Source: Rhodococcus sp. HNM0563
Lineage (GTDB): Bacteria > Actinomycetota > Actinomycetes > Mycobacteriales > Mycobacteriaceae
Reading direction: 5' to 3'
Assembly: GCF_012726195.1 (NCBI RefSeq)
Contig: NZ_JAASAF010000003.1
Location: forward strand, 310,001-374,000
Length of the DNA: 64,000 nt
A program made the translations under genes and the position numbers. Below are positions 12,308 to 28,717 of this stretch, piece after piece (the first letter of the stretch is position 1; each line of letters begins with the position of its first letter). Under the pieces are notes generated by a model. It made no database searches. It was not told the DNA's origin and saw only the letters and a list, made by a program, of their open reading frames with translations.

Positions 12308-12416
12308 CGCGTCATCACCACGTGAGTCACATTACGCCCACGAGTTGTCGCGGTTGCGACGGTGGGCAACAACACTCGCGCGCTCCTCCCCCGCCCCGGT
12401 AGCGTGACATCCATTG

Positions 12417-12436
12417 AACCTACGCAACCGTAGGTT
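12417..12436. promoter_or_regulatory. Perfect inverted repeat, candidate operator for the hemolysin III gene
   Basis: AACCTACG-CAAC-CGTAGGTT, 8-base perfect arms with a 4-base spacer. The right arm contains TAGGTT, a plausible -10, 28 bases before ATG 12465. The size and symmetry are those of a TetR-family operator; the binding protein is unknown. Confidence 0.5.
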
Positions 12437-12464
12437 ACTGTCCGGTCGGGAAGGATCCACCCAG

Positions 12465-13130
12465 ATGACGGCCTTCGGAATCGACGAGCTGCCCGTCAAA
12501 CCTCGCATGCGCGGGTGGATCCACCTGTGGGCATTCGGGGCCGCGGTGATCGCGGGCATCGTTCTGGTGTACGCCGCCACGATGATGCATCCCACCGCGA
12601 CGTGGCCGACCCTGATCTACAGCATCACGGTGTGCGGCCTCTTCGGAATCAGTGCCCTCTACCACCGCGTCCACTGGCACAACCCCCGGCACAGAATGTG
12701 GATGAAGCGAGCCGACCATTCGATGATCTTCGTCTTCATCGCAGGCAGCTACACCCCGTTCGCGACCCTCGCTTTGCCACCCGAGACCGGGCGGACACTT
12801 CTGACGATCGTCTGGGCGGGCGCAGCGGGTGGCGTCGCACTGAAGATGCTGTGGCCGACCGCACCGCGATGGGTGGGCGTGCCCCTCTATCTCCTACTCG
12901 GATGGGCGATCGTTCCCGTCGCCGGCGACCTCGTATCCGAAGTGGGCGTCGCCCCGATGGTCCTGCTCGTCGTGGGCGGACTGTTCTACAGCGCCGGAGC
13001 GATTCTGTACGCGACGAAATGGCCCGACCCGTGGCCCTCGACGTTCGGGCACCATGAGTTCTTCCACGCCGCTACCGTCATCGCGGCGGCGTGTCACGCA
13101 GTTGCGGTCTGGCTCGTCGTGTTCACCTGA
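12465..13130 (+). CDS. trhA: Hemolysin III / TrhA family seven-helix membrane protein
   Basis: 221 residues with seven hydrophobic segments. Residues typical of the family's metal site are ISALYHRVHW near helix 2, RADHSMIFVFIAGSYTPF, and HHEFFHAATV near the end. The family (PAQR/TrhA/YqfA) has been linked to membrane lipid homeostasis; the hemolysin name is historical. ATG 12465 has a GGAAGGA Shine-Dalgarno. Position beside the cis-prenyltransferase agrees with Rv1085c-Rv1086. A perfect palindrome overlaps its presumed promoter, suggesting a dedicated repressor. Confidence 0.9.
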   Translation: MTAFGIDELPVKPRMRGWIHLWAFGAAVIAGIVLVYAATMMHPTATWPTLIYSITVCGLFGISALYHRVHWHNPRHRMWMKRADHSMIFVFIAGSYTPFATLALPPETGRTLLTIVWAGAAGGVALKMLWPTAPRWVGVPLYLLLGWAIVPVAGDLVSEVGVAPMVLLVVGGLFYSAGAILYATKWPDPWPSTFGHHEFFHAATVIAAACHAVAVWLVVFT

Positions 13131-13181
13131 ATCGTTCGATCGGACTCATCACACCCTGCAGCACCAATGGTCACGATTCGG

Positions 13182-13187
13182 TAACCT
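13182..13187 (+). promoter_or_regulatory. Candidate -10 for leaderless mscS
   Basis: TAACCT ends eight bases before ATG 13196, with no Shine-Dalgarno between. Confidence 0.4.
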
Positions 13188-13195
13188 CGCGTGCA

Positions 13196-14110
13196 ATGTC
13201 TATCTCGCTTCTCGCCTTCGAATTGACCGACACGAATCGCGAGTGGCTGATCCACAAGCCACTCGCGATCGTCAGCTACATCGTTGTCGCAGTGGTGCTC
13301 AGATATGTGCTGCACAAACTGATCGACCGCATGACGCTGCCCCGCGATCCCGCCCGGCCACCCAAGCGGTCGATCCTGCGCCCCCTGCAGGATCGCGCGG
13401 GCAAGCCCCTCGGCGATCCGGCCGCACGCGAGCGACGCGCTCAGCGCGCCCAGACCATCGGATCCGTTTTCAAATCCGGCGTGTCCATCATCGTGCTGGG
13501 ATGGGTCGTGTTGCAGACCCTCGACAGGCTCGGCTTCAACGTCGCACCGTTCATCGCCTCGGCCGGTATCGCCGGTGTCGCGCTCGGTTTCGGCGCTCAG
13601 AACCTGGTCCGGGATTTCATCTCCGGCATGTTCATGCTGCTCGAGGACCAATACGGAGTGGGTGACGTGGTCGATGTGGGAGATGCCATCGGCACGGTCG
13701 AATCCGTCGGACTCCGGGTGACGACGATCCGCGACATCGACGGGACACTGTGGTACTGCCGCAACGGGGAGATTCTGCGAGTCGGCAACATGAGCCAGGG
13801 TCACGCGGTCGCGGTCGTCGATGTGCCGATCGCCCCCACGGCGAACGTCGACCGCGCGCAACAGGTCGCATTCCGTGCGGTGATCGAAACGGCCGACCGC
13901 GACGACATCGCACCCTACGTTCTGGAAAAACCCGAACTGCTCGGCGTGAACTCGGTCACCGCCGGCGCGGTCACCCTCCGCATGACCGTGCGGGTGCGAG
14001 CCGGCAAGCAGTGGGCGGTCCGCCGCGCCCTGACCGGCGCGGTACTCGAGTCGTTCGATTCGAACGGAATCGAGTCGCCGTCGCTGATGCTCGCGCCGGT
14101 CGCGACGTAG
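13196..14110 (+). CDS. MscS-family mechanosensitive channel
   Basis: 304 residues. Hydrophobic helices lie at about 20-38 and 95-115, followed by the MscS pore helix region (ASAGIAGVALGFGAQNLVRDFISG) abbreviated here as GIAGVALGFGAQ, with alternating Gly/Ala packing. The beta domain motif GDVVDVGDAIGTVESVGLR follows. It is a small-conductance osmotic release channel type in the cytoplasmic membrane. ATG 13196 is chosen over an in-frame start at 13091 because it follows a TANNNT element and begins with the first membrane-proximal segment. It is the first gene after the break in core synteny. Confidence 0.9.
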   Translation: MSISLLAFELTDTNREWLIHKPLAIVSYIVVAVVLRYVLHKLIDRMTLPRDPARPPKRSILRPLQDRAGKPLGDPAARERRAQRAQTIGSVFKSGVSIIVLGWVVLQTLDRLGFNVAPFIASAGIAGVALGFGAQNLVRDFISGMFMLLEDQYGVGDVVDVGDAIGTVESVGLRVTTIRDIDGTLWYCRNGEILRVGNMSQGHAVAVVDVPIAPTANVDRAQQVAFRAVIETADRDDIAPYVLEKPELLGVNSVTAGAVTLRMTVRVRAGKQWAVRRALTGAVLESFDSNGIESPSLMLAPVAT

Positions 14111-14142: not shown

Positions 14143-15162
14143 TCAACCCCGGTAGCGCACCGGCTCCCCGCGATCGACCCGTTCACGCTGCGGAACGACG
14201 GTGTACTTCGGGTCTTTCGCCGAGGCGATACCCGCCTCGTAGACGCCGAGGCGAGTGCACAGCGAGCCCGCCATGAGTGCGGCACCGGACACCATCGACA
14301 ACACTCGGCTGCGACGCCCGGCGAATGCTCCGATGGCACCCAGCGCCGTCAGGGCCTTGCTGACCCTCATGAACTGTCCGGTCCTGCCCCGATGAAGTGT
14401 CTCGGCGGGCAGACCCATCGATTGTTCCATCCGATGTTCTGTTGCGAGCTCGACGAACGCGCCGCCGACTGCGAACGCGCGCGCAGGACCGGCCTCGTCG
14501 ACGGGCGCGCCCAGGAGACCGAGACCGCCGGACGCCGCGGCAGCCGACCCACAGAACACGAAGGGAAGCTCCTTGTAGGCCGAATGCCAGGCCGGGGTGG
14601 CGGTGTCGGAGAGCAGCACTCCCGTGTAGGAAGCCACCGGTGCTGCGGTCAGGGCCCCCGCAATCCCGGCGGGCCGACCGAGGGCGAGCAGTAGCCGGAC
14701 CGGACCCCGCTTCCAGCCGTCGGGCAACATTCCGGCCACTTCCGCCGCCGCGGCGATACCCGCGAACGGACCGTGCAGAGACAGGATCCAGGTACCGACC
14801 GACATCGGCGACGTCGGCTTCACGACCCGCAGCATGTTGAGGAAACGGCTCGGCCTGCCCAGGTCGCGAACGAGGGCGCCGACACTGACGAGCAGGGACA
14901 CGAGCGACCCCAACCGGGCGACGCGACGCAGTGCAGGGCGACCGGTCAGGTCCGCGCCCGCGGCGAGCAGAGAAGATCCGGCCGCCACGCCACCGGTGAA
15001 CAGGTAGACAGCGATGTCGTGCTCCCACGGCGCGGGCTTCACGATGGGGCGCCCGTAATAGGACTCGAAGTCGGCTTCCGGCACCATCACCCGGTCGCCG
15101 CCCCGAGCGCCACCCGACCGATGGGGATTGCCCGGACTGCCGCCGTGCTGCACCTGGGTCAT
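14143..15162 (-). CDS. NrfD-type membrane subunit of the formate dehydrogenase
   Basis: 339 residues. After a hydrophilic N-terminus with YYGRPIVKPAPWEHDIAVYLFTGG, eight or so hydrophobic segments follow, with GRPSRFLNMLRVVKPTSPMSVGTW, the NrfD/PsrC signature. This quinone-interacting subunit lacks heme ligands typical of FdnI cytochrome b. It would accept electrons from the FeS subunit and reduce menaquinone. ATG 15162 overlaps the stop codon of the FeS gene (ATGA), so the two are translationally coupled. It is the last gene of selD-fdhA-fdhB-nrfD. Confidence 0.88.
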   Translation of the reverse strand: MTQVQHGGSPGNPHRSGGARGGDRVMVPEADFESYYGRPIVKPAPWEHDIAVYLFTGGVAAGSSLLAAGADLTGRPALRRVARLGSLVSLLVSVGALVRDLGRPSRFLNMLRVVKPTSPMSVGTWILSLHGPFAGIAAAAEVAGMLPDGWKRGPVRLLLALGRPAGIAGALTAAPVASYTGVLLSDTATPAWHSAYKELPFVFCGSAAAASGGLGLLGAPVDEAGPARAFAVGGAFVELATEHRMEQSMGLPAETLHRGRTGQFMRVSKALTALGAIGAFAGRRSRVLSMVSGAALMAGSLCTRLGVYEAGIASAKDPKYTVVPQRERVDRGEPVRYRG

Positions 15163-16073
15163 CCGCGCCTCCTCAGGAACGACACGGCAGCACCCGCCAG
15201 CATCGCGACCGCCGCGACGGCGGCCCGACCCCACATCTCCGGTAGGTCCTTGGTGGTCACCACCGGGTCCGGAGGCAGTCCGTAGACCTCCGGCTCGTCG
15301 AGCAGCAGGAAGAAGGCGCCGGTTCCGCCGACCCCATCCTCCGGATCGTTGCCGTAGAGACGTGCCTCCGATACCCCCCGCTCGTGCAACAACGCCAGTC
15401 GCTCGTCGGCCCGCGCACGCAACTCCTCGACGTCGCCGAACTGGATCGACTCGGTGGGGCAGGCCTGCGCACACGAGGGTGTCTGGCCGTCGGTGAGCCG
15501 GTCGTAGCAGAGCGTGCACTTCTGGGCGATTCCGACCTTCGGGTCGTCCTCCGGTCCCTTGCGACGGTCGATGACACCGTACGGACAGGCGGCCACGCAG
15601 TAGCCGCAGCCGTTGCAGATCTCGTCCTGCACGACCACGGTGCCGAACTCGCTTCGGAACAGGGAACCGGTGGGGCAGACGTCGAGACAGGCCGCGTGGG
15701 TGCAGTGCTTGCACACGTCCGAGGACATCAGCCACTGGAAGTCGGGTTTCTCCTCATCCGGCCGATCACTCGGTGCCGCACCGACGGAGGGCATGCCCAA
15801 CGACACCGCGGCCGGCTTCTCCACCGGGCGTTCGATGAAGGCGACGTGCCGCCACTGATTGGCGTTGAGCGAGTGGCTGTTGTCGTAGGAGGTGCCCAGC
15901 ATCTGAAACAGGTTCTCGGGGACGTCGTTCCATTCCTTGCATGCGACCTCGCAGGCCTTGCATCCGATGCACACGCTCGTGTCGGTGAAGAAGCCCTTCC
16001 GTGGCGGCGAATCCTCGTACCCGGCATCGGGTGCCGGGTCGAGCGGTCCGAAGAGACTGTTGCGGCCGATCAC
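15159..16073 (-). CDS. fdhB: Formate dehydrogenase iron-sulfur (beta) subunit
   Basis: 304 residues with four cysteine clusters for [4Fe-4S] centres: CIGCKACEVAC (35-45), CKHCTHAACLDVC, CNGCGYCVAAC, and CTLCYDRL...CAQAC. The order and spacing match FdnH/FdoH. A C-terminal hydrophobic helix ending in RRRG (about 280-304) anchors it in the membrane. GTG 16073 is the start because it overlaps the fdhA stop codon (GTGA) and gives the family-like N-terminus; longer in-frame starts lie inside fdhA. It relays electrons from the molybdo/tungsto-bis-MGD subunit to the membrane subunit. Confidence 0.94.
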   Translation of the reverse strand: MIGRNSLFGPLDPAPDAGYEDSPPRKGFFTDTSVCIGCKACEVACKEWNDVPENLFQMLGTSYDNSHSLNANQWRHVAFIERPVEKPAAVSLGMPSVGAAPSDRPDEEKPDFQWLMSSDVCKHCTHAACLDVCPTGSLFRSEFGTVVVQDEICNGCGYCVAACPYGVIDRRKGPEDDPKVGIAQKCTLCYDRLTDGQTPSCAQACPTESIQFGDVEELRARADERLALLHERGVSEARLYGNDPEDGVGGTGAFFLLLDEPEVYGLPPDPVVTTKDLPEMWGRAAVAAVAMLAGAAVSFLRRRG

Positions 16074-19000
16074 TCGTCGTCCTCCTCCTCTTGGGTACCT
16101 GTGTCTTCCGAGGCGGTGACAATGTCGTCCGAGACGGTGACGATGGGTGGGTACTCGGCGTCGGTTACCCCGGCCCTGCTCGTGTACTCCTCGACGTACT
16201 GTCGCATCGCCGCTCCGGTCGGGCGCCGTCCTGGCTGGACATCGCACGTACCGACCTTGGATTCTTGAATGAGCACGTTCGGGTCGAGCGTGATGCCGAA
16301 CAGGTCGTTGGCGGAATCACCCTTGACCAGGCCGCCGCTGCCCCAGTGGTAGGGCATCCAGACCTGGTGGACGGTACGTCCTTCGACCTTCAGCGGCCGC
16401 AGTCGCTCCGTCACCAGTACCCGGCCCTCGACCACCGAACGTGCGGTGACGACGTGGCACCACCCCATGTGCTCGAGGCCACGCTCGGCTGCCAGTGCAG
16501 GCGAGACCTCTACGAACATCTCCGGTTGAAGCTCGGCGAGATGTTCGAGGTACCGGCTCATCCCGCCCGCGGTGTGGTGCTCGGTGAGCCGACTGGTCGT
16601 GAACACGAACGGGAAGACGTCGACGTGCTCCTCGGGCGGGGCGGGGTTCATCGGGTTGTCGTCGCGGCGGTACTCGACGCGCGTCGGGTTGGCCTGCTGC
16701 CCGTAGAGCTGGTTCCGGAACGGCGACTCCACAGGTTCGTAGTGGGTCGGCATCGGGCCGTCGACCAGTCCCTGCGGTGCGTAGAGGGCGCCCTTGCCGT
16801 CGCCCTGCATGATGAACGGATCGATTCCCTCGATCGCCTCGACACCGTCGGCACCCGCCGGCGCGCGGTAGCTCGGCGGCTTGGTCTTCTCGAAGTCGGG
16901 CACGTCCTCGCCGGTCCACTGTTGCGCGTCGGCGTCCCACCACACATAGGCCTTGCGTTCGCTCCACGGTCTGCCCTCGGGATCGGCGGACGCCCGGTTG
17001 TAGAGGATGCGACGGTTCATCGGCCACGCCCAACCCCACTCCGGAGCCACGAACGACTGCTCGTGACGGGACTTGCGGCGGTTGGCCTGGTTGACGCCGT
17101 CGGCATAGACACCGGTGTAGATCCAGCAGCCACCCAGGGTGGAGCCGTCGTCCTTCATCTCGGTGAACGACGACAGCGGCCGGCGCGTCGCCACGTCGTA
17201 GCCGTTGATCTCCATCAGCACGGCTTCGGCGCTGGGCTCGTCGTGCTCGCCGTGCACTGGATAATCCCATGCCAGGTCGAGCAGCGGCCGGTCGCGCTCG
17301 TCGGTCGACTCGGCCAGACGCTCCCGCATCATGCGGCCGAGGTGGTAGAAGAACCACAGTTCCGAGCGGCAGTCCTCCGGTGGTTCGACGGCCTTCTCCC
17401 GCCACTGCAGCATCCGCTGGGTCTGCGTGAAGGTGCCTTCCTTCTCGGCGTAGGAGGCCGCCGGGAAGAGGAACACCTCGGTGGGGCACTCCTCGGTCAC
17501 GATCTCCCCGGTCTCGATTTCCGGGGAGTCCTTCCAGAAGTTGGCGCTCTCGATCTCGAACAGGTCGCGCACGACGAGCCAGTCGAGGTTCGCCATCCCG
17601 AGCCGCTGGGCGCGCCCGTGGGCGGAGCCGACGGCCGGGTTCTGCCCGAGGAGGAAGTAGCCCTTGACCTTTCCGTCGATCATGTCGAGCACCGAACGAT
17701 AGGTGCCGTGGTCGCCGGTGATCTTCGGCATGTAGTCGAAGCAGTAGTCGTTGTCGGCGGTCGCCGCGTCGCCCCAGTAGGCCTTGAGCAGGTTCACCGC
17801 GTAGGCGTCGGCCTTCGACCAGAAACCCTTGCTGCCCGGGTTGCGCACGCTGTCGACCCAGTCCGTGAACGAATGGTGCTTGTTCGCGTCGGGCATCGGC
17901 AGGTAGCCGGGCAACAGGTTGAACAGTGTCGGAATGTCGGTCGAGCCCTGGATGCTGGCGTGACCACGCAGCGCCATGATGCCTCCGCCGGGGCGGCCCA
18001 TGTTGCCGAGCAGCAACTGCAGGATCGCGCCGGTGCGGATGTACTGCACGCCCACACTGTGCTGGGTCCAGCCCACGCTGTAGACGAGCGCCGTCGTCCG
18101 CTCCCGGCCGGAGTTCTCGGTCCACGCGCGGCAGACGTCGAGGAAGTCCTCCTGCGAGACGCCGCACACCTGCTCGACGACCTCGGGCGTATAGCGCGCG
18201 AAGTGTCGCTTGAGCACCTGGTACACGCAACGCGGATGCTGCAGGGTCTCGTCGCGCTTCGGGTGACCCGAGATCTGGATGCCGTGCGCCTCGTGTTGCA
18301 TACCCGCGGCGGTGGCCCGGTGCTTCGCGTGGTCCCCGGAGTTCTCGGCCTGGGAGTCGTGCAGATCTCCCGGCTCGTCCTCGACGTCGTATTGCCAGCT
18401 CGTCGGATCGTAGGTACGCGTCTCGGGGTCGAAGCCCGAGAAGAGCCCGTCGAGGTCGTCGGTGTCCTCGAACTTGTCGCTGACGAGCATCGCCGCGTTG
18501 GTGTAATTGACGACGTATTCGCGGAAGTCCAGCTCGTTGCTCAAGACATAGTTGATGACGCCACCGAGGAAGGCGATGTCGCTGCCGACCCGGATGGGCA
18601 CATGCTTGTCCGCCACTGCGCTGGTGCGTGTGAAGCGCGGATCGACGTGGATGATGCGGGCACCGCGCATCTGGGCCTCCACGACCCACTGGAAGCCCAC
18701 GGGGTGGGCCTCGGCCATGTTGGAGCCCTGAATGACGATGCAGTCAGCGTTGGCCAGGTCGGCTGTGTAGCCGGTGGCGCCGCCGCGCCCGAAGCTGGTC
18801 CCCAGACCGGGGACGGTGGCGGAGTGTCATATGCGGGCCTGATTCTCGACCTGGATCGCCCCCATCGCCGTGAACAGCTTCTTGATGAGGTAGTTCTCCT
18901 CGTTGTCCAGCGTCGCACCGCCGAGGCTTGCGATGCCCATCGTGCGCCGGACGCGGCGACCCTTCTCGTCGAGTTCCTGCCAGGTGTCGCGCCGGGTCTG

Positions 19001-19396
19001 CAACACACGGTCGACGACCATCTCCATGGCCGTGTCCAGGTCGAGGTCTTCCCATTCGGTGCCGTAGGGCCGGCGGTAGCGGACCTTGGTCTCACGCAGC
19101 TCGCTGGTGACGAGATTCTTGCTCGCCGAACCCTTCGGACAGAGCCGTCCACGGTTCACCGGGCTGTCGGGATTGCCCTCGATCTGGACGATCTTCTCGT
19201 CCTTGACGAAGATGTTCTGTCCGCAGCCGACTGCGCAATAGGGGCACACGCTGTGCGCCACCCGATCGGCGGTAGAGGTGCGTGGTTCGACCTCGTCGGT
19301 GCGCCGGGATCGAGCTGCCTTGCCACGTCCGAGCAGATCTCGGCCGAGAAGCTGGCGCAGGACGGGCCACGGAAGAGACGCGCCGTTCTCTGCCAT
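16070..19396 (-). CDS. fdhA: Selenocysteine-containing formate dehydrogenase, catalytic (alpha) subunit
   Basis: 1108 residues when the in-frame TGA at 18827-18829 is read as selenocysteine 190. Both sides of the TGA are in the same frame and encode one FDH: upstream the N-terminal [4Fe-4S] site (C51, C54, C58, C86) with Lys88 in LCPKG, downstream GTSFGRGGATG and NMAEAHPVGFQW. The context ARI-Sec-HSATVPGLG matches the Sec-His active site of E. coli FDH-N and FDH-H. It oxidises formate to CO2 at a bis-MGD Mo/W centre. A GGAGGAGG Shine-Dalgarno precedes ATG 19396. No twin-arginine signal is visible, unlike FdnG, so a cytoplasmic site is inferred. Confidence 0.95.
18785..18829 (-). promoter_or_regulatory. 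SECIS element in fdhA mRNA
   Basis: Directly after the UGA the mRNA reads CAC UCC GCC ACC GUC CCC GGU CUG GGG ACC. GUCCCC and GGGGAC form a six-base stem (18809-18814 with 18798-18803) closing the loop GGUCU. E. coli fdhF SECIS has the same GGUCU loop, and in both mRNAs the GGU codon is the seventh after UGA. This is the expected SelB-binding hairpin. Confidence 0.85.
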
Positions 19397-19506
19397 GGGA
19401 CCTCCTCCGCTGCACTATTGATCACGAATCCTATCGGCCGAGTGGGTTCCGCGCCGAGGAACCGCGTGCGATGCAGGTCGGCCGGGATGTCCCCTCGCGC
19501 GAGCCG

Positions 19507-20526
19507 TCAGCGCACCCGGATCGCGTGCGCGCCGGCCGGAACCACCTCGCCGATCACCGGGTGGCCCGGCAGCTCCCCGACGACCAGAAGACCGCCGGAC
19601 GTCTGCGCGTCGGCGAGCAGGATCAGCTCGTCCTCGCCCAACTCGGAATCCACCTCGTCACGGACCCACTCGAGATTCCGGCGGCTCCCGCCCGGTACGA
19701 ACCCCTCCGCGAGGGATTCCCTTGCCCCCGCGACATACGGCACGTTCGAGGCGTCGAGCACCGCGGTCGTGCCGCTGGCACGCATCATCTTCATCAGGTG
19801 TCCCAGCAAGCCGAAACCCGTCACGTCGGTGGCGGCACGGACCCCGGCCGCATGGGCGAGTTGCGCCGCGTCGCGGTTGAGAGTCGTCATCACCGCGACC
19901 GCTTCCTCGAACCGCTCGCCGGTGGCCTTGTGGCGGTTGTTGAGGATGCCGAGTCCGAGCGGTTTGGTCAGGGTGAGCGGCAGGCCCGGCGCGGCAGCAT
20001 CATTGCGCAGCAGGCGGTCCGGGTCGCCCAGCCCGGTGACCGCGAGCCCGTACTTCGGCTCCCGATCGTCGATGCTGTGCCCGCCGGCGAGATGAGCACC
20101 GGCCTCGGCACACGCGTCGGCACCGCCCCGCATCACCTCGGCGGCCAGCTCGAAGGGAATGAGTTCCCGCGGCCAGCCGAGCAGGTTCACCGCGACGATC
20201 GGCGTGCCTCCCATCGCATAGACGTCGGACATGGCGTTGGTGGCGGCGATTCGTCCCCAGTCGTAGGGGTCGTCGACGACCGGGGTGAAGAAGTCGGCGG
20301 TCACGATCAGCGCTCGGCCGCTGCCGTCGGGTGCCGCGTCGATCCGGACCGCCGCACCGTCGTCTCCGTTTTCGACACCGACCAGCAGGTCGCCTCCGGC
20401 ACGGCCGCCCTGCAGACCACCGAGCACCCGCTCGAGCTCACCCGGCGGAACCTTGCAAGCGCAGCCACCGCCCGCTGCGTACTGGGTGAGTCTGATGCCC
20501 TCGGGAAGGTGGACGTGTGTGGTCAT
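19507..20526 (-). CDS. selD: Selenophosphate synthetase (selenide, water dikinase)
   Basis: 339 residues. It makes monoselenophosphate from selenide and ATP, the selenium donor for SelA. The N-terminal active-site loop GGGCACKV carries Cys22 and Lys25, equivalent to Cys17/Lys20 of E. coli SelD; the catalytic position is Cys, not Sec. ATP-binding AIRS/PurM-like motifs include NAMSDVYAMGG and DVTGFGLLGH. ATG 20526 has no Shine-Dalgarno, but a TATGTT element sits 6 bases upstream, suggesting a leaderless mRNA. It is 110 bases upstream of fdhA on the same strand and divergent from tRNA-Sec. Confidence 0.95.
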   Translation of the reverse strand: MTTHVHLPEGIRLTQYAAGGGCACKVPPGELERVLGGLQGGRAGGDLLVGVENGDDGAAVRIDAAPDGSGRALIVTADFFTPVVDDPYDWGRIAATNAMSDVYAMGGTPIVAVNLLGWPRELIPFELAAEVMRGGADACAEAGAHLAGGHSIDDREPKYGLAVTGLGDPDRLLRNDAAAPGLPLTLTKPLGLGILNNRHKATGERFEEAVAVMTTLNRDAAQLAHAAGVRAATDVTGFGLLGHLMKMMRASGTTAVLDASNVPYVAGARESLAEGFVPGGSRRNLEWVRDEVDSELGEDELILLADAQTSGGLLVVGELPGHPVIGEVVPAGAHAIRVR

Positions 20527-20532
20527 GGGCCC

Positions 20533-20538
20533 AACATA
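20533..20538 (-). promoter_or_regulatory. Candidate -10 for leaderless selD
   Basis: TATGTT on the minus strand, six bases before ATG 20526, no Shine-Dalgarno. Confidence 0.45.
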
Positions 20539-20571
20539 CGGGCGAGCCGTAACACGGGACTCGACTTCGGT

Positions 20572-20577
20572 TAGGGT
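20572..20577 (+). promoter_or_regulatory. Candidate -10 for tRNA-Sec
   Basis: TAGGGT ends six bases before the first base of tRNA-Sec, a spacing that would start transcription at or next to the mature 5' end. Confidence 0.35.
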
Positions 20578-20583
20578 GAGCGC

Positions 20584-20675
20584 GGAGGCGGTTCTCGTCT
20601 GGTGATGGACGCGGTCTTCAAAACCGTTGTGGCCCAGTATCTGGGTCAGGCGGGTTCGATTCCCGTCCGCCTCCG
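20584..20675 (+). tRNA. selC: tRNA-Sec, anticodon UCA
   Basis: An 8-bp acceptor stem (GGAGGCGG with CCGCCTCC), a 5-bp T stem around TTCGATT, an extended D stem, a long variable arm (CCCAG-TAT-CTGGG) and anticodon TCA at 20618-20620 within a CGGT/ACCG stem. The 8+5 acceptor-T architecture is diagnostic of bacterial tRNA-Sec. CCA is not encoded. selA starts about 35 bases downstream. Confidence 0.95.
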
Positions 20676-20710
20676 CCGGATTTCAGGTCAGCCGTGGGAT
20701 GAGGAGGGGC

Positions 20711-22015
20711 GTGCCGGACCCGAGACGGGGCACCCCCCGCACCGACCAGATCCTCGCGGACCCGCGACTGCGTGAAGCCGTCGACCGGCTCGGCACCCGC
20801 CTGGTCAAGCAGACGGTGACCGCGGCCCAGCAGCGGTGCCGCGCCGGCGAGATCGAACCGGCCGCCGTCGCCGACGAAGCGGTCGCATCGTTGCCCGACG
20901 GGGCGACCACCCTGCGCCGCGTCGTCAACGCGACCGGGGTGGTGGTGCACACCAATCTCGGCCGCGCCCCGCTCTCCCGCGCGGCGGTGGACGCCGTGAC
21001 CGCGGCGGCAGGCGCGACCGATGTCGAACTGGACCTGGCCACGGGTCGGCGCGGCCGGCGCGGGCGTGGCGCCCTCCAGGCCCTCGCAGAGCAGGTGCCC
21101 GACGCCGGAGGCGTCCACGTGGTGAACAACGGCGCAGCCGCGCTCGCACTGGTCGCCCGGGTGCTTGCGCGCGGTGGCCGCTCGATCGTGATCGCGCGGG
21201 GCGAGCTGGTCGAGATCGGCGACGGCTTCCGGATCCCGGAACTGCTGGAGTCCGTGGGCGCCAGGTTGCGGGAGGTCGGTACCACCAACCGGGTGCGTCT
21301 GAGCGACTATGCCGCGGCGGTCGACGACGACACCGCCTTCGTTCTCAAGGTGCATCCGTCGAACTTCACGGTCAGCGGCTTCACGTCGTCGGTGCCGGTC
21401 CGGGAGCTGGCGGGGTTGGGCCTGCCGGTGGTGGTCGACATCGGGTCGGGGCTGCTGGCCCCACATCCGCGTCTGCCGAACGAGCCGGACGCCGCCAGTG
21501 CGCTGCGCGCCGGAGCCGAACTCGTGACCGCCTCGGGCGACAAGTTGCTCGGAGGTCCGCAGGCCGGACTGCTGCTCGGCGAGTCGGGGCTGGTGGAGCG
21601 GCTTCGCCGCGACCCGTTCGCTCGTGCACTTCGCGTCGACAAGCTCACTTTGGCGGCGCTGGAGGCGACCCTGGCGGGGCCGACCCCTCCGGTGCCGGCC
21701 GCATTGGCCGTTCGGCCGGACGATCTCCGCACCCGGGCGCGGACGATCTGCGCCGGGCTCCCGGCCGAGTTGAAGCCGGAAGTGGTCGACTCCGACGGTG
21801 TTGTGGGAGGCGGCGGTGCCCCGGACGTCATCCTGCCCAGCGTCGCGATCGCCCTGCCCGAACGCCTCGCCGGCCCATTGCGACTCGGCGCGAAACCTGT
21901 CGTCGGACGAGTCGAGCGCGCCCGGCTGTTGCTCGACCTGCTGACGGTCGCTCCCGACGAGGACGCCGACCTGATCGACGCCGTAAGGTGCGCGGCCGGC
22001 CGCGAAGAACGCTGA
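20711..22015 (+). CDS. selA: L-seryl-tRNA(Sec) selenium transferase
   Basis: 434 residues. A PLP enzyme that converts Ser-tRNA-Sec to Sec-tRNA-Sec using selenophosphate. The Schiff-base lysine is K278 in TASGDKLLGGPQAG. INATGVVVHTNLGRAPL-type and VHPSNFTVSGFT motifs are present. GTG 20711 (VPDPRRGTPRTD) gives the family N-terminus behind AGGAGG, though the spacing is only three bases; ATG 20699, four codons earlier, is the alternative. The stop codon overlaps the selB start (TGATG), so the two are coupled. Confidence 0.95.
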   Translation: MPDPRRGTPRTDQILADPRLREAVDRLGTRLVKQTVTAAQQRCRAGEIEPAAVADEAVASLPDGATTLRRVVNATGVVVHTNLGRAPLSRAAVDAVTAAAGATDVELDLATGRRGRRGRGALQALAEQVPDAGGVHVVNNGAAALALVARVLARGGRSIVIARGELVEIGDGFRIPELLESVGARLREVGTTNRVRLSDYAAAVDDDTAFVLKVHPSNFTVSGFTSSVPVRELAGLGLPVVVDIGSGLLAPHPRLPNEPDAASALRAGAELVTASGDKLLGGPQAGLLLGESGLVERLRRDPFARALRVDKLTLAALEATLAGPTPPVPAALAVRPDDLRTRARTICAGLPAELKPEVVDSDGVVGGGGAPDVILPSVAIALPERLAGPLRLGAKPVVGRVERARLLLDLLTVAPDEDADLIDAVRCAAGREER

Positions 22016-23757
22016 TGCACGTCATCGCGACCGCCGGCCACGTCGACCACGGGAAGTCCACGCTGGTCGAAGCGCTCACCGGCGCCGACCCCGATCGGCT
22101 CGCCGAGGAACGGCGGCGAGGGCTGACCATCGAGCTCGGCTACTGCTGGACGTCCTGGCCGGACGTGGGAGAGGTCGCTTTCGTCGACGTCCCCGGACAC
22201 GAGCGCTTCCTGACGACGATGCTCGCCGGAGTGGGACCGGTCCCGGCCGTGTTGTTCGTGGTGGCCGCCGACGACCCGTGGATGCCGCAAGCGGCAGAAC
22301 ACCTCGCCGCGCTCGACGCTCTCGGAGTGCGGCACGCCGTCGTCGCGGTAACCCGCGCCGACCTCATCGATCCGGGTCCCGCTGTCGCGCGGGCCACCGC
22401 GGAAATTGCCCGCACCGGTTTGGCGGGGGCTCGCGTCGTCGCCGTGAGCGGCCACACCGGGATGGGGCTCGACGACCTCCGCTCGGCTTTGGTGGCGATG
22501 GTCGCCGAGCTGCCCGATCCGGATCCGGACGCCGACGTCCGGCTCTGGGTCGACCGCCGGTTCACCGTGCGAGGAGCGGGGACCGTCGTCACCGGGACGC
22601 TGCCCGCCGGGACGGTCCGCGTCGGAGACACACTCGCCGTCGGCGACACGCCTGTGCGGGTGCGCGGTGTCCAGGCGCTCGGTAGCGACGAGACAGCAGT
22701 GAGCGGCGTGGCCAGGGTCGCGCTCAATCTGAGCGGCCGGGTCGACGACGTGGTCCGGGGCAGTGTGCTCGTGACACCCGGCGCATGGCACCACACCTCC
22801 GTCGTGGACGTGCGGATCACCGGAACGGACCGGCCTCCGGTCGCTCCGGTGCTGCATATCGGGGCGGTGGATGTCGCAGTCCGGTGCCGCCCTCTCGGGG
22901 ACGATCTCGTCAGGCTCACCCTCGACCGGGCGCTGCCTCTCCGCATCGGCGACCGCGCCCTGCTTCGCGACCCCGGACGCCGGATGATCTGGCGTGCCGA
23001 CGTGCTCGATCCCGACCCGCCACGCCTCCGGCGACGCGGTGCCGCGGCACGCCGGGCCCGGCAGCTCGCGGGCGCAGACGGCACTGCGAGGCTGGCGGAC
23101 GAACTCGCCCGCCGCGGACTTCTGCACCGAGAGCAGCTGCGTCGATTGGGCATCCCCGAGGAGGCCGGCGACCACCTGGCCATAGGACCGTGGCTCGTCG
23201 CACCCGCCCTCGCAAGAGCGGTCGCCGATCGGCTGCCCGCACTCGTCCAGCAGCATGCTCACGCGCATCCGCTGGATCCGGCCGTCCCGCTGACCGTTCT
23301 GGCGTCACAGCTGCGACTTCCGACTTCCGATGTGGTCCGGGCGCTGGTACGCCCACCCCTCCGCGTGGTCGGGGGCCGGGTCGCCGGACCTGCAACAGAG
23401 GTACTGCCGAGCAAGGTCCGGACGGCCGTCGACGTGGTACGCCGCGATCTCCTCGCGGCGCCGTTCGTCGCCCCGACAGCCGACCGGCTCCGCGAGCTCG
23501 GCCTGGACGACCGGGCTCTGGGAGCGGCCGACCGCAGCGGGCAACTGTGGCGGGTCGGCCCGGGGATCGTCCTGCTTCCCGACGCCGCCGACGCAGCCGT
23601 GACACTGCTTCGGGAGCTGGAGCAGCCGTTCACGACCAGTGCCGCGCGGGAGCGGCTGGGGACGACCCGACGTGTGGTGCTGCCGTTGCTCGATCAGCTC
23701 GACCGTGCAGGCCGCACACGGCGGCTCGCCGACGACCGTCGCGAGGTGGCCCGATAA
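22015..23757 (+). CDS. selB: Selenocysteine-specific elongation factor
   Basis: 580 residues. The N-terminal GTPase has G1 GHVDHGKS (8-15), switch region GLTIELGY, G3 DVPGHE (58-63) and a G4 TRAD (113-116) where E. coli has TKAD. EF-Tu-like beta domains follow, and the C-terminal third is made of winged-helix repeats (for example TSAARERLGTTRRVVLPLLDQL) that bind the SECIS loop. It replaces EF-Tu for Sec-tRNA-Sec at UGA codons marked by a SECIS. It ends near the convergent YhgE-like gene with no clear terminator between. Confidence 0.95.
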   Translation: MHVIATAGHVDHGKSTLVEALTGADPDRLAEERRRGLTIELGYCWTSWPDVGEVAFVDVPGHERFLTTMLAGVGPVPAVLFVVAADDPWMPQAAEHLAALDALGVRHAVVAVTRADLIDPGPAVARATAEIARTGLAGARVVAVSGHTGMGLDDLRSALVAMVAELPDPDPDADVRLWVDRRFTVRGAGTVVTGTLPAGTVRVGDTLAVGDTPVRVRGVQALGSDETAVSGVARVALNLSGRVDDVVRGSVLVTPGAWHHTSVVDVRITGTDRPPVAPVLHIGAVDVAVRCRPLGDDLVRLTLDRALPLRIGDRALLRDPGRRMIWRADVLDPDPPRLRRRGAAARRARQLAGADGTARLADELARRGLLHREQLRRLGIPEEAGDHLAIGPWLVAPALARAVADRLPALVQQHAHAHPLDPAVPLTVLASQLRLPTSDVVRALVRPPLRVVGGRVAGPATEVLPSKVRTAVDVVRRDLLAAPFVAPTADRLRELGLDDRALGAADRSGQLWRVGPGIVLLPDAADAAVTLLRELEQPFTTSAARERLGTTRRVVLPLLDQLDRAGRTRRLADDRREVAR

Positions 23758-23809: not shown

Positions 23810-25894
23810 CTAGACCTCGGCCTCCTGCACGGGCTTACCAGCGCGAACCAGGTCGACCGCGATCACGCATACGAGCGAGACGACACCCCAGATCACGAAC
23901 GTCACCAGGTGGCCGCCGACGTTGTCCGCACCGAAGTACATGATCGACCGGACCGACTCCACCGCCGCGGGCATCGGCAGGACGTCGTGCAGCACCCGGA
24001 AGATCTCCGGGCTCATGAAGATCGACATTGCGCCGTTCGACGCGGGCACACCCAGGAACATCAGGACTGCGACTGCCGGGACCACGGCGAGCATGCCGAA
24101 CAACCTCGTGAGGAACGTGGCGAACATCGACGTCGTGAAGATCGCCAGCACTCCGGTACCGAACAGTTGCAGGAAGTGCCCGTCGACGGCGCCGGTGAGC
24201 GGAGCAGCAATCACCCACACGACCAGCGACATGAACACCGAGAAGCCTGCGGCGATCGGCAGCAGCGTCTTGAGCCGCATGGCCGCCGGAGCGGCACTGT
24301 TGCCCACGACGGCGAGCATGAAGCCCGACATGATCCAGCCCATCGCGACGTACATCGCGACCGTGCCCATGGTGTCGGACCCCGGCAGCGGGGCGATGTC
24401 CTCGATCGTCAGCGGGACCTGCTGGCCTGCGGCCACCTGCTCGAACGTCATCGACACGACCTGCTGCTGGCTCATCCCTGCCGACTGGTTCGCGATCAAC
24501 GTCGCGGTGGGCGAATCGGCCGACGGCAGCACGTATGCCGAGACGACGCTGCGATCCTGCACGGCGGCACGCGCTTCGTCTACGGATGCCGACGCGGTGA
24601 ACTCGAAGAGGCCGTCCATGTTCTGTTCGAGGCCTGCGACCGCCTGCTCTGCCACATCCTCGGTAGCGGCCACTACTGTCACGGGCATCTCACGGGGTGC
24701 CGGCTGGTACATCGCACCGAGCATGATCGAGAACATCATGACGACCATGGCGAGCGGGAAGGCTGCGAGCGTCACGTACCGGACCCAATTGCGTTGCGGG
24801 CGCGGTCCTGCAGTGAGTGAGGCGACCGTGATCTCAGGGTCGCCGGCATCCGGATTCCGCTTGCGTTTGATCGCGTCGATCCCGAATACCGCAGCGAGCG
24901 CAAGAATTGCACCGATCACCATCACGAGAATGTGAGAACCGAGCCCGACGCCGTCGAAATACAGGACGGAGCGGAGCGCTTCGCCGGTGGCCGCGGTGGG
25001 CAGGAACGAGTGCAAGTTCACGTACATCGAGGGCAGCGTGTAGATCGACATGCCCATGTTGGATGCGGGCACACCGAGCACCATGACGAAGAGCATGCCG
25101 ACGAGCACCGCCATCGGACCGAAGATCCGGGTGAGGAAGAACTGCACCGACCCCACCGCGAACACTGCGAGCCAGGAGATTCCGAGAACCGCTGCGGTGT
25201 GCCCCTCGACGGCGCCGAGCACCGGATCGGCGACGAACCACACGAGGGCGGCAATCAGCGCGGACCAGCCGGCCAGCAGAGGGATCGCGCGTCGCTTTCG
25301 GAGCAGCTCGGGCGAGTTCGACAGCGTGATGCTCCACGGCATGTACCCGGCGAGCATCAGACCGGTCGCCATGAACATCGCCGCCAGACCGGCGGTGTCG
25401 TGGTCGGGCAGCGGTGCCAGGTCCTCGGTGACGAGGTCGAGACCCTGGCCGATCACGTGGGGAGCCACCAGGCCGGTGACCGTGGACGACTGGGATGCTC
25501 CTGCCGCTCCGGCGGTGTACAGCGTGGCGGAGCCGGTGTCCGACAACGAGACGGCGCCTGCAACTTCACGGTCGAAAACAAGATCGCGGGCCTGTTCGTC
25601 GCTCGTAACGATGCGCACGTCGACGGCATCGGGGTCGGCATCCTCGAGCGACCGAGCGAACTGTTCCACCTGCTGGCTCGTACCGGCAACGGCGATGGGC
25701 ATGTTGTTCGGAGCCGGGGCGTGCATCGCGAAGAGGTACCCGGTGATCATCATCCCGACCATCAGGAAGGGCATGACGAAGATCGCGACTACACGTCCGA
25801 TCTGTTCTTTGCGTGCACGAGCAAGGTCGGCTTCTGCAGCCTCGTCATCGCCCGGCGGACCGCTGACAGATTGCTCGAGGAAGGTTGTGGACAT
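23810..25894 (-). CDS. Tandem-duplicated YhgE/Pip-like (ABC-2-type) membrane protein
   Basis: 694 residues made of two similar halves. Each half has an N-terminal membrane helix, an extracytoplasmic region of about 130-150 residues, then about five helices. Matching landmarks are DLAPLPDHDTAGLAAMF with DIAPLPGSDTMGTVAMY, LGVPASNMGMSIY with LGVPASNGAMSIF, and EALRSVLYF with ESVRSIMYF. The architecture resembles YhgE/Pip and DUF3533 membrane proteins, but no ATPase partner is nearby. ATG 25894 has a GAGGAG Shine-Dalgarno. A TetR regulator is transcribed divergently, suggesting inducible export or stress function. Confidence 0.75.
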   Translation of the reverse strand: MSTTFLEQSVSGPPGDDEAAEADLARARKEQIGRVVAIFVMPFLMVGMMITGYLFAMHAPAPNNMPIAVAGTSQQVEQFARSLEDADPDAVDVRIVTSDEQARDLVFDREVAGAVSLSDTGSATLYTAGAAGASQSSTVTGLVAPHVIGQGLDLVTEDLAPLPDHDTAGLAAMFMATGLMLAGYMPWSITLSNSPELLRKRRAIPLLAGWSALIAALVWFVADPVLGAVEGHTAAVLGISWLAVFAVGSVQFFLTRIFGPMAVLVGMLFVMVLGVPASNMGMSIYTLPSMYVNLHSFLPTAATGEALRSVLYFDGVGLGSHILVMVIGAILALAAVFGIDAIKRKRNPDAGDPEITVASLTAGPRPQRNWVRYVTLAAFPLAMVVMMFSIMLGAMYQPAPREMPVTVVAATEDVAEQAVAGLEQNMDGLFEFTASASVDEARAAVQDRSVVSAYVLPSADSPTATLIANQSAGMSQQQVVSMTFEQVAAGQQVPLTIEDIAPLPGSDTMGTVAMYVAMGWIMSGFMLAVVGNSAAPAAMRLKTLLPIAAGFSVFMSLVVWVIAAPLTGAVDGHFLQLFGTGVLAIFTTSMFATFLTRLFGMLAVVPAVAVLMFLGVPASNGAMSIFMSPEIFRVLHDVLPMPAAVESVRSIMYFGADNVGGHLVTFVIWGVVSLVCVIAVDLVRAGKPVQEAEV

Positions 25895-25923
25895 CTGCAA
25901 TACTCCTCGAATAATTACGTTGA

Positions 25924-26725: not shown

Positions 26726-28717
26726 TCAGCGGGCCAGCGCTTCGCGTAACGCGGACACCGAACCGACCGGCCGGTCACACACGAACCCTCGGCAGACATA
26801 GGCGGCGGGCTCTCCGTCGACGAGGGGGCGGTCGCGCAGAAGTGGAGACGAGTCCGGCTCGCCGCCGACCACGATCGATCCACCCGGGGCCTCCCGTCGC
26901 GCGGCCCGGAGCAGCTCACCCTCGCCGGCCACTGCCACCTGGATCGGACCACGCACCGCGGCCTCGGCGACAGTGAGCCAATGTCCGGCCGAGCGCGGAG
27001 CGCGGTCGAGCAGCAGCGACGCATCACTCAACGACGCGTGTGCGGCCTCCGCGTAGCGGTCCCCGTCGTCGACCACCGCGGCCAGGGAAAGCATCGCCTC
27101 GGTGATCAGCGAGGCACCGGACGGTGTCGCGCCGTCGACGGGATCGCGCGGCCGCGTCACGAGCTGTTGGGCGTCGTGAGCGGTATCGAACCAGCTGCCC
27201 GGCCTGTCCGGATCGGCGAAGTAGGTCAGCGCGGCGTCGGCCGACTGCCGGGCAGGGTCGAGCCACCGCACCTCACCGGTGGCCTGATACAACGCGAGAA
27301 GAGCGGTGATCAAGGCGCCGTGGTCTTCGAGCACACCGGCGGGCGCTCCCACCGACCCGCCGAGCGATGCGCGCCGGAGGCGGCCGTCGACCAGATGCAG
27401 ATTCAGTAGCCCACGCGCACAGTCTGCGGCAGCGTCCACCCAGTCCGGCCTTCCCAACGCAAGGCCCGCCTCGACGAGACCGGTGATCGCCAAGGCGTTC
27501 CATGCGGTGACCACCTTGTCGTCGCGACCCGGCTGCGGCCTGACCGACCGCGCCCTGAACAGACGCACACGAACCGAATCCGTACGAACCTGATCGTCCG
27601 GATCGGCAGGTAGCTGCAGGACTGACGTCCCGGCTTCGAACATCCCGGTGTCGGTGACGGCGAACACTTCCGCTGCCCACGCTCCGTCCTCGTCGCCGAG
27701 AACGTCGACAAGTTGCTGCGGCGTCCACACATAGGTCAGGCCTTCGACGCCGTCGGTATCGGCGTCGAGGGCGGACGCGAAACACCCCTCTTCGGTACGG
27801 AGATCGCGGAGCAGGAAGCCGGCGATGCCCTTCGTGACACGGCGCGGCAGAGCCGCATCGGTGATCCGAGCCAGGTGCGCATACACGCGCAGAAGCATCG
27901 CGTTGTCGTAGAGCATTTTCTCGAAATGCGGCACGACCCAACCGGTATCGACGCTGTAGCGGGCGAATCCGCCGCCGAGCTGGTCGTGGATGCCTCCGCG
28001 CGCCATGGCTTCGGCGGTGCGTTCGACGAGCCGCAGCGTCGCTGCGTCCCTCGTGCGTTCGTATCCGCGGAGCAAGCCCTCCAACAGGTTCGACGGCGGG
28101 AACTTCGGTGCACCACCGAAACCGCCGTGAACCTTGTCCTCGTCCGACGCGACCGTCGCCGCAGCCGCGTCGAGAAGCTCCGGGCCGACCATCCGGGTGC
28201 CCGGCGGCAGCCCGCCACTACTGCGCTGGAGTTCGGCAACGATCGCCGCAGCAGCCTTCGCAACGTCGTCGCGGCGGTTTCGCCACGTGTCAGTGATCGC
28301 ACCGAGCAACTGGACGAACGACGGCATCCCACCCCGCGGCATTTTCGGGTAGTAGGTGCCGCAGTAGAACGGCTCCCCGCCGGGGGTGAGGAAGCAGGTC
28401 ATGGGCCATCCACCCTGCCCCGTCATCGCAACCGTTGCGTTCATGTACACCGCGTCGATGTCGGGACGTTCCTCCCGATCGACCTTGATGCACACGAAAT
28501 GCTCGTTCATCAGCGCAGCGGTGTGGTCGTCCTCGAACGACTCGTGCGCCATGACGTGACACCAGTGACACGCGGCGTAGCCGACGGACAGAAGGATCGG
28601 CACATCCCGGTCGCGGGCCTCGGCGAGCGCGTCGCCGCCCCATTCCTGCCAGTGCACGGGATTGTCCGCGTGCTGACGGAGGTATGGGCTGAGAGACTCG
28701 GCAAGCCTGTTCGCCAT
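26726..28717 (-). CDS. DUF255 thioredoxin-domain protein (YyaL/SSP411 family)
   Basis: 663 residues. The N-terminal thioredoxin-like domain begins NRLAESLSPYLRQHADNPVHW and contains the CxxC-like motif ACHWCHVMAHESF. FGGAPKFPP and a six-hairpin (alpha/alpha)6 barrel region follow (GGIHDQLGGGFARYSVD, WVVPHFEKMLYDNA). Human SPATA20 and Bacillus YyaL belong here; the biochemical role is not settled. It matches Rv1084 by position. The small membrane protein gene and mca lie upstream on the same strand, only a few bases apart, suggesting an operon mca-membrane protein-DUF255. Confidence 0.9.
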   Translation of the reverse strand: MANRLAESLSPYLRQHADNPVHWQEWGGDALAEARDRDVPILLSVGYAACHWCHVMAHESFEDDHTAALMNEHFVCIKVDREERPDIDAVYMNATVAMTGQGGWPMTCFLTPGGEPFYCGTYYPKMPRGGMPSFVQLLGAITDTWRNRRDDVAKAAAAIVAELQRSSGGLPPGTRMVGPELLDAAAATVASDEDKVHGGFGGAPKFPPSNLLEGLLRGYERTRDAATLRLVERTAEAMARGGIHDQLGGGFARYSVDTGWVVPHFEKMLYDNAMLLRVYAHLARITDAALPRRVTKGIAGFLLRDLRTEEGCFASALDADTDGVEGLTYVWTPQQLVDVLGDEDGAWAAEVFAVTDTGMFEAGTSVLQLPADPDDQVRTDSVRVRLFRARSVRPQPGRDDKVVTAWNALAITGLVEAGLALGRPDWVDAAADCARGLLNLHLVDGRLRRASLGGSVGAPAGVLEDHGALITALLALYQATGEVRWLDPARQSADAALTYFADPDRPGSWFDTAHDAQQLVTRPRDPVDGATPSGASLITEAMLSLAAVVDDGDRYAEAAHASLSDASLLLDRAPRSAGHWLTVAEAAVRGPIQVAVAGEGELLRAARREAPGGSIVVGGEPDSSPLLRDRPLVDGEPAAYVCRGFVCDRPVGSVSALREALAR

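Follow-up and report, generated by a model that had tools for sequence, protein, structure and literature searches.

Formate dehydrogenases (FDHs) that carry a selenocysteine (Sec) codon and have sel genes beside them are already known from other species. In the accessible part of a 2010 report, an FDH gene of Corynebacterium aurimucosum with an internal UGA was clustered with sel genes (PMC2830990), and in the accessible part of a 2020 report, three Sec-FDH systems were described for Actinomycetospora chiangmaiensis, with SECIS elements predicted by bSECISearch (PMC7176365). According to the same part of the latter report, the build-up of formic acid almost vanished when A. chiangmaiensis was supplied with selenite, and formic acid removal was selenite-dependent (PMC7176365). 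FDHs of Geodermatophilaceae in which UAG encodes Sec have also been published (Mukai et al. 2016, as cited in the accessible part of PMC5330540), and an NCBIfam model, NF041513, exists for the enzyme type studied here. The A. chiangmaiensis FDHs and the C. aurimucosum fdnG cluster combine a Sec codon with adjoining sel genes, as does the locus that we describe from Rhodococcus sp. HNM0563. Both of those systems belong to other species, and our gene was absent from the accessible text of the two reports (PMC7176365, PMC2830990). No title on a Rhodococcus Sec-FDH was seen in the part of the literature matches surveyed, which is not proof of absence.

The locus lies in a 64,000-nt stretch of DNA, all of which was analyzed (the window). 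The gene for the FDH alpha subunit, fdhA (16070..19396, minus strand), runs from an ATG at 19396 to a terminal TGA at 16070, and the sole in-frame stop between them is the TGA at 18829..18827. Translation of this TGA as Sec (U190) restores a single protein of 1108 residues, as the first-pass annotation had proposed. FdhA matched NF041513 (formate_DH_Act) over nearly the full length of the model with 1954 bits (cut-off 1400), and passed the curated cut-off of TIGR01553 (FDH-N alpha) with 958 bits (cut-off 814). A plain list of open reading frames splits the gene into pieces of 189 aa (18827..19396) and 882 aa (16070..18718), so the expectation that a simple gene caller would cut it at 18827 was borne out. 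We regard it as nearly certain from the sequence that the UGA is read as Sec190, inserted via a bacterial SECIS, and that fdhA is a canonical bacterial selenoprotein gene. This is the best reading because homology, gene context, and the comparison of Sec with Cys relatives agree.

The genes around fdhA are those of a membrane-bound FDH and of Sec synthesis and insertion. Downstream on the minus strand are fdhB (15159..16073), encoding a 4Fe-4S beta subunit, and fdhC (14143..15162), encoding an NrfD-type membrane subunit. The putative GTG start of fdhB was read from the sequence and overlaps the fdhA stop; its profile matches, computed on 15159-16091, were 80 bits for Fer4_11 (PF13247) and 178 bits for TIGR01582, the latter below the cut-off of 334.7. 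The putative ATG start of fdhC at 15162 overlaps the fdhB stop, and the gene matched PF03916 with 70 bits (on 14143-15030) and nothing in NCBIfam. Upstream of fdhA on the same strand is selD (19507..20526, minus), a selenophosphate synthetase of the Cys form (GGGCACK; TIGR00476, 383 bits). Divergent from it on the plus strand are selC, selA, and selB, which completes the Sec-decoding trait within the window. The tRNA-Sec gene selC (20584..20677, anticodon UCA) was found by ARAGORN and by RF01852 (76.5 bits, gathering cut-off 47). The selenocysteine synthase gene selA (20699..22015; TIGR00474, 403 bits; PF03841, 305 bits) has a putative start at the in-frame ATG 20699, its reading frame opening at 20627. 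The ATG of selB (22015..23757), which encodes the Sec-specific elongation factor (TIGR00475, 267 bits, cut-off 242), shares one base with the stop codon of selA. Residues 3-575 of SelB align with the SelB chain of 5lzb-5lzd, and its C-terminal winged helix is SelB-wing_3 (PF09107, 49 bits). Beyond the cluster, profile matches identified an HlyIII-related membrane protein (12414-13130), an MscS-type channel (13091-14110), and a DUF255 thioredoxin-domain protein (26726-28717), and the protein at 23810-25900 had a weak YhgE/Pip match below the cut-off.

The UGA is followed by CAC UCC GCC ACC GUC CCC GGU CUG GGG ACC. The candidate SECIS apical hairpin (18798..18814, minus strand) comprises the six-pair stem GUCCCC/GGGGAC, formed by 18814..18809 with 18803..18798, and the loop GGUCU (18808..18804), located 18 nt from the UGA. 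The stem, the loop, and the position of GGU at the seventh codon after the UGA, the register of Escherichia coli fdhF, are as the first-pass annotation had given them, the register being confirmed in both sequences. The published bSECIS model, in the accessible part of its description, calls for a loop of 3-9 nt, an upper stem of 4-16 bp, at least one G in loop positions 1-2, a distance of 16-37 nt from Sec codon to loop, and a minimum free energy of -7.5 kcal/mol or lower (PMC13188914). Our element has a 5-nt loop and six pairs in both the 35- and 45-nt folds, though not in the 76-nt fold, with G in the loop GGUCU, the 18-nt spacing, and -11.4 kcal/mol for the 35-nt fold. It thus fits the bacterial SECIS model, and SelB binding and Sec insertion are its predicted role.

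The element was compared with those of E. coli. E. coli K-12 fdhF (TGA CAC GGC CCA TCG GTT GCA GGT CTG) and fdnG have GGU and AGU, respectively, at codon 7, followed by CU, with the same 18-nt spacing as our fdhA, and the loop core (G/A)GU(C/U)U is common to our family, fdhF (GGUCU), and fdnG (AGUCU). However, in both E. coli elements the stem is interrupted and sits on a lower helix, the fdhF loop being GGUC, whereas the Rhodococcus hairpin has a short, uninterrupted, G+C-rich stem of six pairs with a C-G pair closing the GGUCU loop. The earlier suggestion that the element is conserved across phyla in sequence as well as shape therefore held, within this gene family, largely for the loop core and failed for the shape, that of E. 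coli being the only other phylum compared. The register alone is not independent evidence, because codons 7-8 encode the same Gly/Ser-Leu position in homologous proteins.

This homology raises the alternative that conservation of the protein (His-x-x-Thr-Val-x-Gly-Leu) alone explains the loop and register, with the RNA hairpin under no selection. In keeping with it, nearly all homologues have Gly/Ser-Leu at codons 7-8, including most of the Cys-type ones of the same order. The two readings differ at synonymous positions, which we compared in 140 homologues, 133 of Sec type (own gene included) and seven of Cys type. The set consisted of given loci and others that we chose among the matches listed, and left out the window copy, two E. 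coli genes, and one paralogue; the homologue search had matched 206 of 298 genomes, of which 72 were searched again. Codons are numbered after the Sec codon, so that 7.3 is the third base of codon 7. Codon 7 ended in U in 133/133 Sec-type but 0/7 Cys-type homologues, being GGU or AGU in the former and GGG, GGC, or GCG in the latter. Codon 6 was CCC in 133/133 Sec-type and 0/7 Cys-type homologues, the Cys-type genes having GTC, GCC, ATC, or TCA there. In the remainder of the Sec-type fragments, the share of GGT among Gly codons was 12.5%, that of AGT among Ser codons 5%, and that of CCC among Pro codons 21.6%. GUU stood at codon 5 in 48 and GGA at codon 9 in 37 of the 133 Sec-type genes, although in the rest of the fragments GUU accounted for 1.8% of the Val codons and GGA for 4.0% of the Gly codons. 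At the third positions of codons 5 and 9, only the combinations C-G, U-A, U-G, G-U, and G-C occurred.

These third bases also varied together. The wobble pair 5.3-9.3 was canonical in all 76 distinct Sec 42-mers, while permutations, which ignore relatedness, gave a mean of 48.0 and a maximum of 59 in 20,000. By parsimony on a quick tree, 5.3 required 28 steps and 9.3 required 26, but the pair only 38, which suggests up to 16 coincident changes. We then enlarged the comparison to the phylum, where 119 of 396 genomes matched and 81 of 90 loci were added (9 repeats dropped), giving 210 Sec and 11 Cys sequences, or 123 and 11 distinct 33-mers. Phylum-wide, the 5.3-9.3 pair was present in 111/123 Sec versus 2/11 Cys sequences. 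The wobble pair 6.3-8.3 was present in 108/123 Sec sequences (permutation mean 97, maximum 106 in 5,000), with G-C in place of C-G in seven.

We also compared the sequences with synonymous recoding, in which the peptides were kept and success was defined as a loop of xGU with at least four contiguous pairs. Among distinct Sec sequences of the same order, 60/60 succeeded against 0.97 expected; phylum-wide, 106/123 Sec sequences succeeded against 2.1 expected, and 0/11 Cys sequences did. In a further named set, for which 80 of 117 loci were kept and which partly overlaps the genomes compared, the motif expression matched 79 of 80 loci (not L337), 70 Sec and nine Cys. All 70 motif-bearing Sec loci carried CCC, RGT, CTG, and the 5.3-9.3 pair, while among the nine Cys loci CCC occurred in none, GGT in one, and the pair in two. 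By a criterion of our own, selection at the RNA level together with absence from Cys homologues, the element was thus supported, 5 of 123 phylum-wide sequences lacking GU. The wobble-position signal, as opposed to the register, is independent evidence, and on these comparative grounds the data amount to showing RNA-level selection on the loop base at 7.3 (U) and on both wobble-wobble pairs. A purely protein-level origin is accordingly very improbable: the synonymous signal is lost in Cys-type genes (7.3 U in 133/133 versus 0/7), both wobble pairs covary, and the recoding result of 60/60 against 0.97 runs counter to it.

The hairpin was not universal in the phylum. Fewer than four contiguous pairs in the fdhA register were found in 17 of the 123 distinct Sec sequences, and xGU stood at codon 7 in 118, the other five having GCU or GCG. 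Those five loci (L208, L211, L213, L224, L228), from genomes of 1.4-2.7 Mb, encode Ala (GCU/GCG) at codon 7 after a UGA, and their SECIS should therefore differ in loop or register.

Folding energy was a further point in favor of the protein-only explanation, with z-scores near zero. In the 45-nt stretch, the stem-loop that the first-pass annotation predicted did form, but its energy (-15.3 kcal/mol) was no better than chance (z 0.26 against shuffled sequences). The 35-nt fold (-11.4 kcal/mol) had a z of -0.27, and the 76-nt stretch had a z of 0.76 and a different fold. We therefore rejected folding energy as proof of the element: a z near 0 in GC-rich sequence proves nothing, and the comparison carries the proof.

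When the UGA occupies the A site, the ribosome would cover approximately the first 12 nt downstream of it. Where the free RNA extended at least 60 nt, counted from the first base of the UGA, our fdhA preferred another fold, with stem probabilities of 0.01-0.24 when the RNA started at the UGA and 0.01-0.57 with upstream RNA. The probability was 0.01 after removal of the UGA and 6 nt, 0.66-1.00 with 9 nt removed, and 0.93-1.00 (pair 6.2-9.1) with 12 nt removed. With the UGA and 12 nt removed, it exceeded 0.5 in 43/46 UGA and 13/14 UAG sequences of the same order and in 42/63 sequences phylum-wide, versus 0/11 Cys sequences. Since longer free RNA prefers another fold, the fdhA hairpin probably depends on occupancy by the ribosome.

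The Sec codon itself differed among the Sec-type homologues, with UGA in 99 and UAG in 34. The UAG genes (L033-L039, L041, L043, L045, L047, L051-L053, L123-L142), come from one family of the same order, Geodermatophilaceae by the named loci, in agreement with Mukai et al. (2016, as cited in PMC5330540), and belong to the same fdhA family as ours. In all 34, codon 6 was CCC and codon 8 was CUG; codon 7 was GGU in 33 and AGU in one. They differ from the window in having UAG and a tRNA-Sec with anticodon CUA instead of UGA and UCA; the CUA anticodon was present in 11/11 UAG loci scanned (L254-L264), where ARAGORN mislabels the tRNA-Sec as tRNA-Pyl. Because the UAG copies have the same hairpin, the SECIS is common to both groups while codon and tRNA differ, and the hairpin appears, from these genes, to be indifferent to which stop codon is recoded.

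The same comparison bears on whether the UGA is instead a true stop or a sequencing error, leaving a broken fdhA with a 189-residue product. The first frame of the plain list does end at 18827. However, the codon was UGA or UAG in 133 of the 140 homologues, own gene included, eight further genomes of the genus carry fdhA with one TGA, 918 more codons are open beyond the UGA, and the Sec machinery adjoins the gene, which leaves this explanation a negligible chance. Decoding of the UGA by a suppressor tRNA as another amino acid, for example Trp or Cys, can be dismissed with practically the same assurance, as no support for it was found within the window, Cys homologues align at the Sec site, a tRNA-Sec with anticodon UCA adjoins fdhA, and the CUA tRNA-Sec in 11/11 UAG loci indicates that codon and tRNA-Sec change together.

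Decoding as Sec also agrees with the distribution of the machinery in 45 genomes that we chose, comprising 19 with UGA, 14 with UAG, seven with Cys, and five without fdhA. A tRNA-Sec of at least 64 bits was found in 33/33 Sec genomes versus 0/12 others. RF01852 exceeded its cut-off of 47 in two of the seven Cys genomes (53 and 49 bits), where ARAGORN called tRNA-Ser(UGA). Matches to the SelB winged helix (PF09107) exceeded the family's cut-off in 33/33 Sec genomes versus 0/12 others, and among 14 control genomes one, E. coli, was positive. The full-length selB model TIGR00475 was less decisive, with 27/33 Sec genomes over the cut-off and the other six at 224-237 bits; 33 matches scored at least 224 bits and the rest at most 212, a dividing line drawn post hoc. 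The seven same-order Cys genes (L048, L049, L054, L056, L063-L065) have lost the loop U and CCC. No strong tRNA-Sec and no SelB winged helix were found in those seven genomes.

The sequence data establish the UGA and the hairpin after it, selection acting on both loop and stem of that hairpin, a full set of machinery genes, and the co-occurrence of that machinery with Sec codons. Established work on such systems predicts the rest: binding by SelB, the steps on the ribosome, release factor 2 (RF2) as a competitor, Sec as a metal ligand, and enzyme activity. On that model, SelD would supply selenophosphate, and SelA would convert Ser-tRNA-Sec to Sec-tRNA-Sec, to be carried by SelB-GTP. With the UGA in the A site, about 12 nt downstream would lie in the ribosome channel and the apical hairpin would be free just outside, where the C-terminal winged helix of SelB would grip its loop (core GU). 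SelB would then deliver Sec-tRNA-Sec against RF2, and Sec190 would become a metal ligand in FdhABC, a membrane-bound formate dehydrogenase of the FDH-N type.

A search of the same genome for a second selenoprotein by the strict pattern TGA-N18-RGTYTG yielded 40 sites, compared with 34 for a reversed-pattern control, and none of the 39 sites beyond fdhA was convincing. Stems of 0-4 pairs were found at 38 of them (fdhA has 6) and one of 11 pairs at the last (L383 280-330). The frame of that site was open for 55 codons before the TGA and more than 150 after it, and its surroundings, searched as three separate pieces, gave no Pfam match with an E value of 1 or lower. We rejected this site, which lies in a palindrome roughly 200 bases from the end of a contig and mimics a UGA with an AGUCU hairpin.

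The codon-6 residue, 196 in our FdhA, may reflect the demands of the RNA. In the same order it was Pro in 133/133 Sec sequences and Val, Ala, Ile, or Ser in 7/7 Cys sequences. We tentatively suggest, with slightly less than even confidence, that RNA sets the protein sequence near the active site, the G+C stem of the hairpin rather than catalysis holding Pro196, and loss of Sec freeing the residue. Outside the order, the codon-6 residue of Sec sequences was also Ala, Ser, or Thr, and Pro was present in 2/11 Cys sequences phylum-wide; since Pro is not exclusive there, such a rule would be lineage-specific.

Of the named relatives found, the closest were from Rhodococcus, with 88-91% identity over the first 400 residues. 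Within the genus, the fdh-sel cluster was present in nine of 18 genomes, ours among them. Among the matches listed, full-length FdhA of other genera of the same family was 63-70% identical. In a quick tree, Rhodococcus FdhA grouped with two Nocardioides sequences (85% identity, SH-aLRT 100), and tRNA-Sec is upstream of fdhA in both genera (L265-L269). All trees were quick and without bootstrap, and the named tree was read without its midpoint root and without rows L385, L389, and L390. From these relationships, the fdh-sel cluster (14143-23757) may have been exchanged between orders.

On the sequence evidence, fdhA is a routine member of a known system, real, well backed, and already known, and it leaves the understanding of Sec insertion unchanged. 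Its main value is for annotation, as the enzyme is cut in two by plain gene callers. The family also offers a natural experiment, with Sec (UGA or UAG) and Cys versions of one gene in one order, and position 7.3 and the wobble pairs are concrete bases that could be tested in an actinobacterial reporter.
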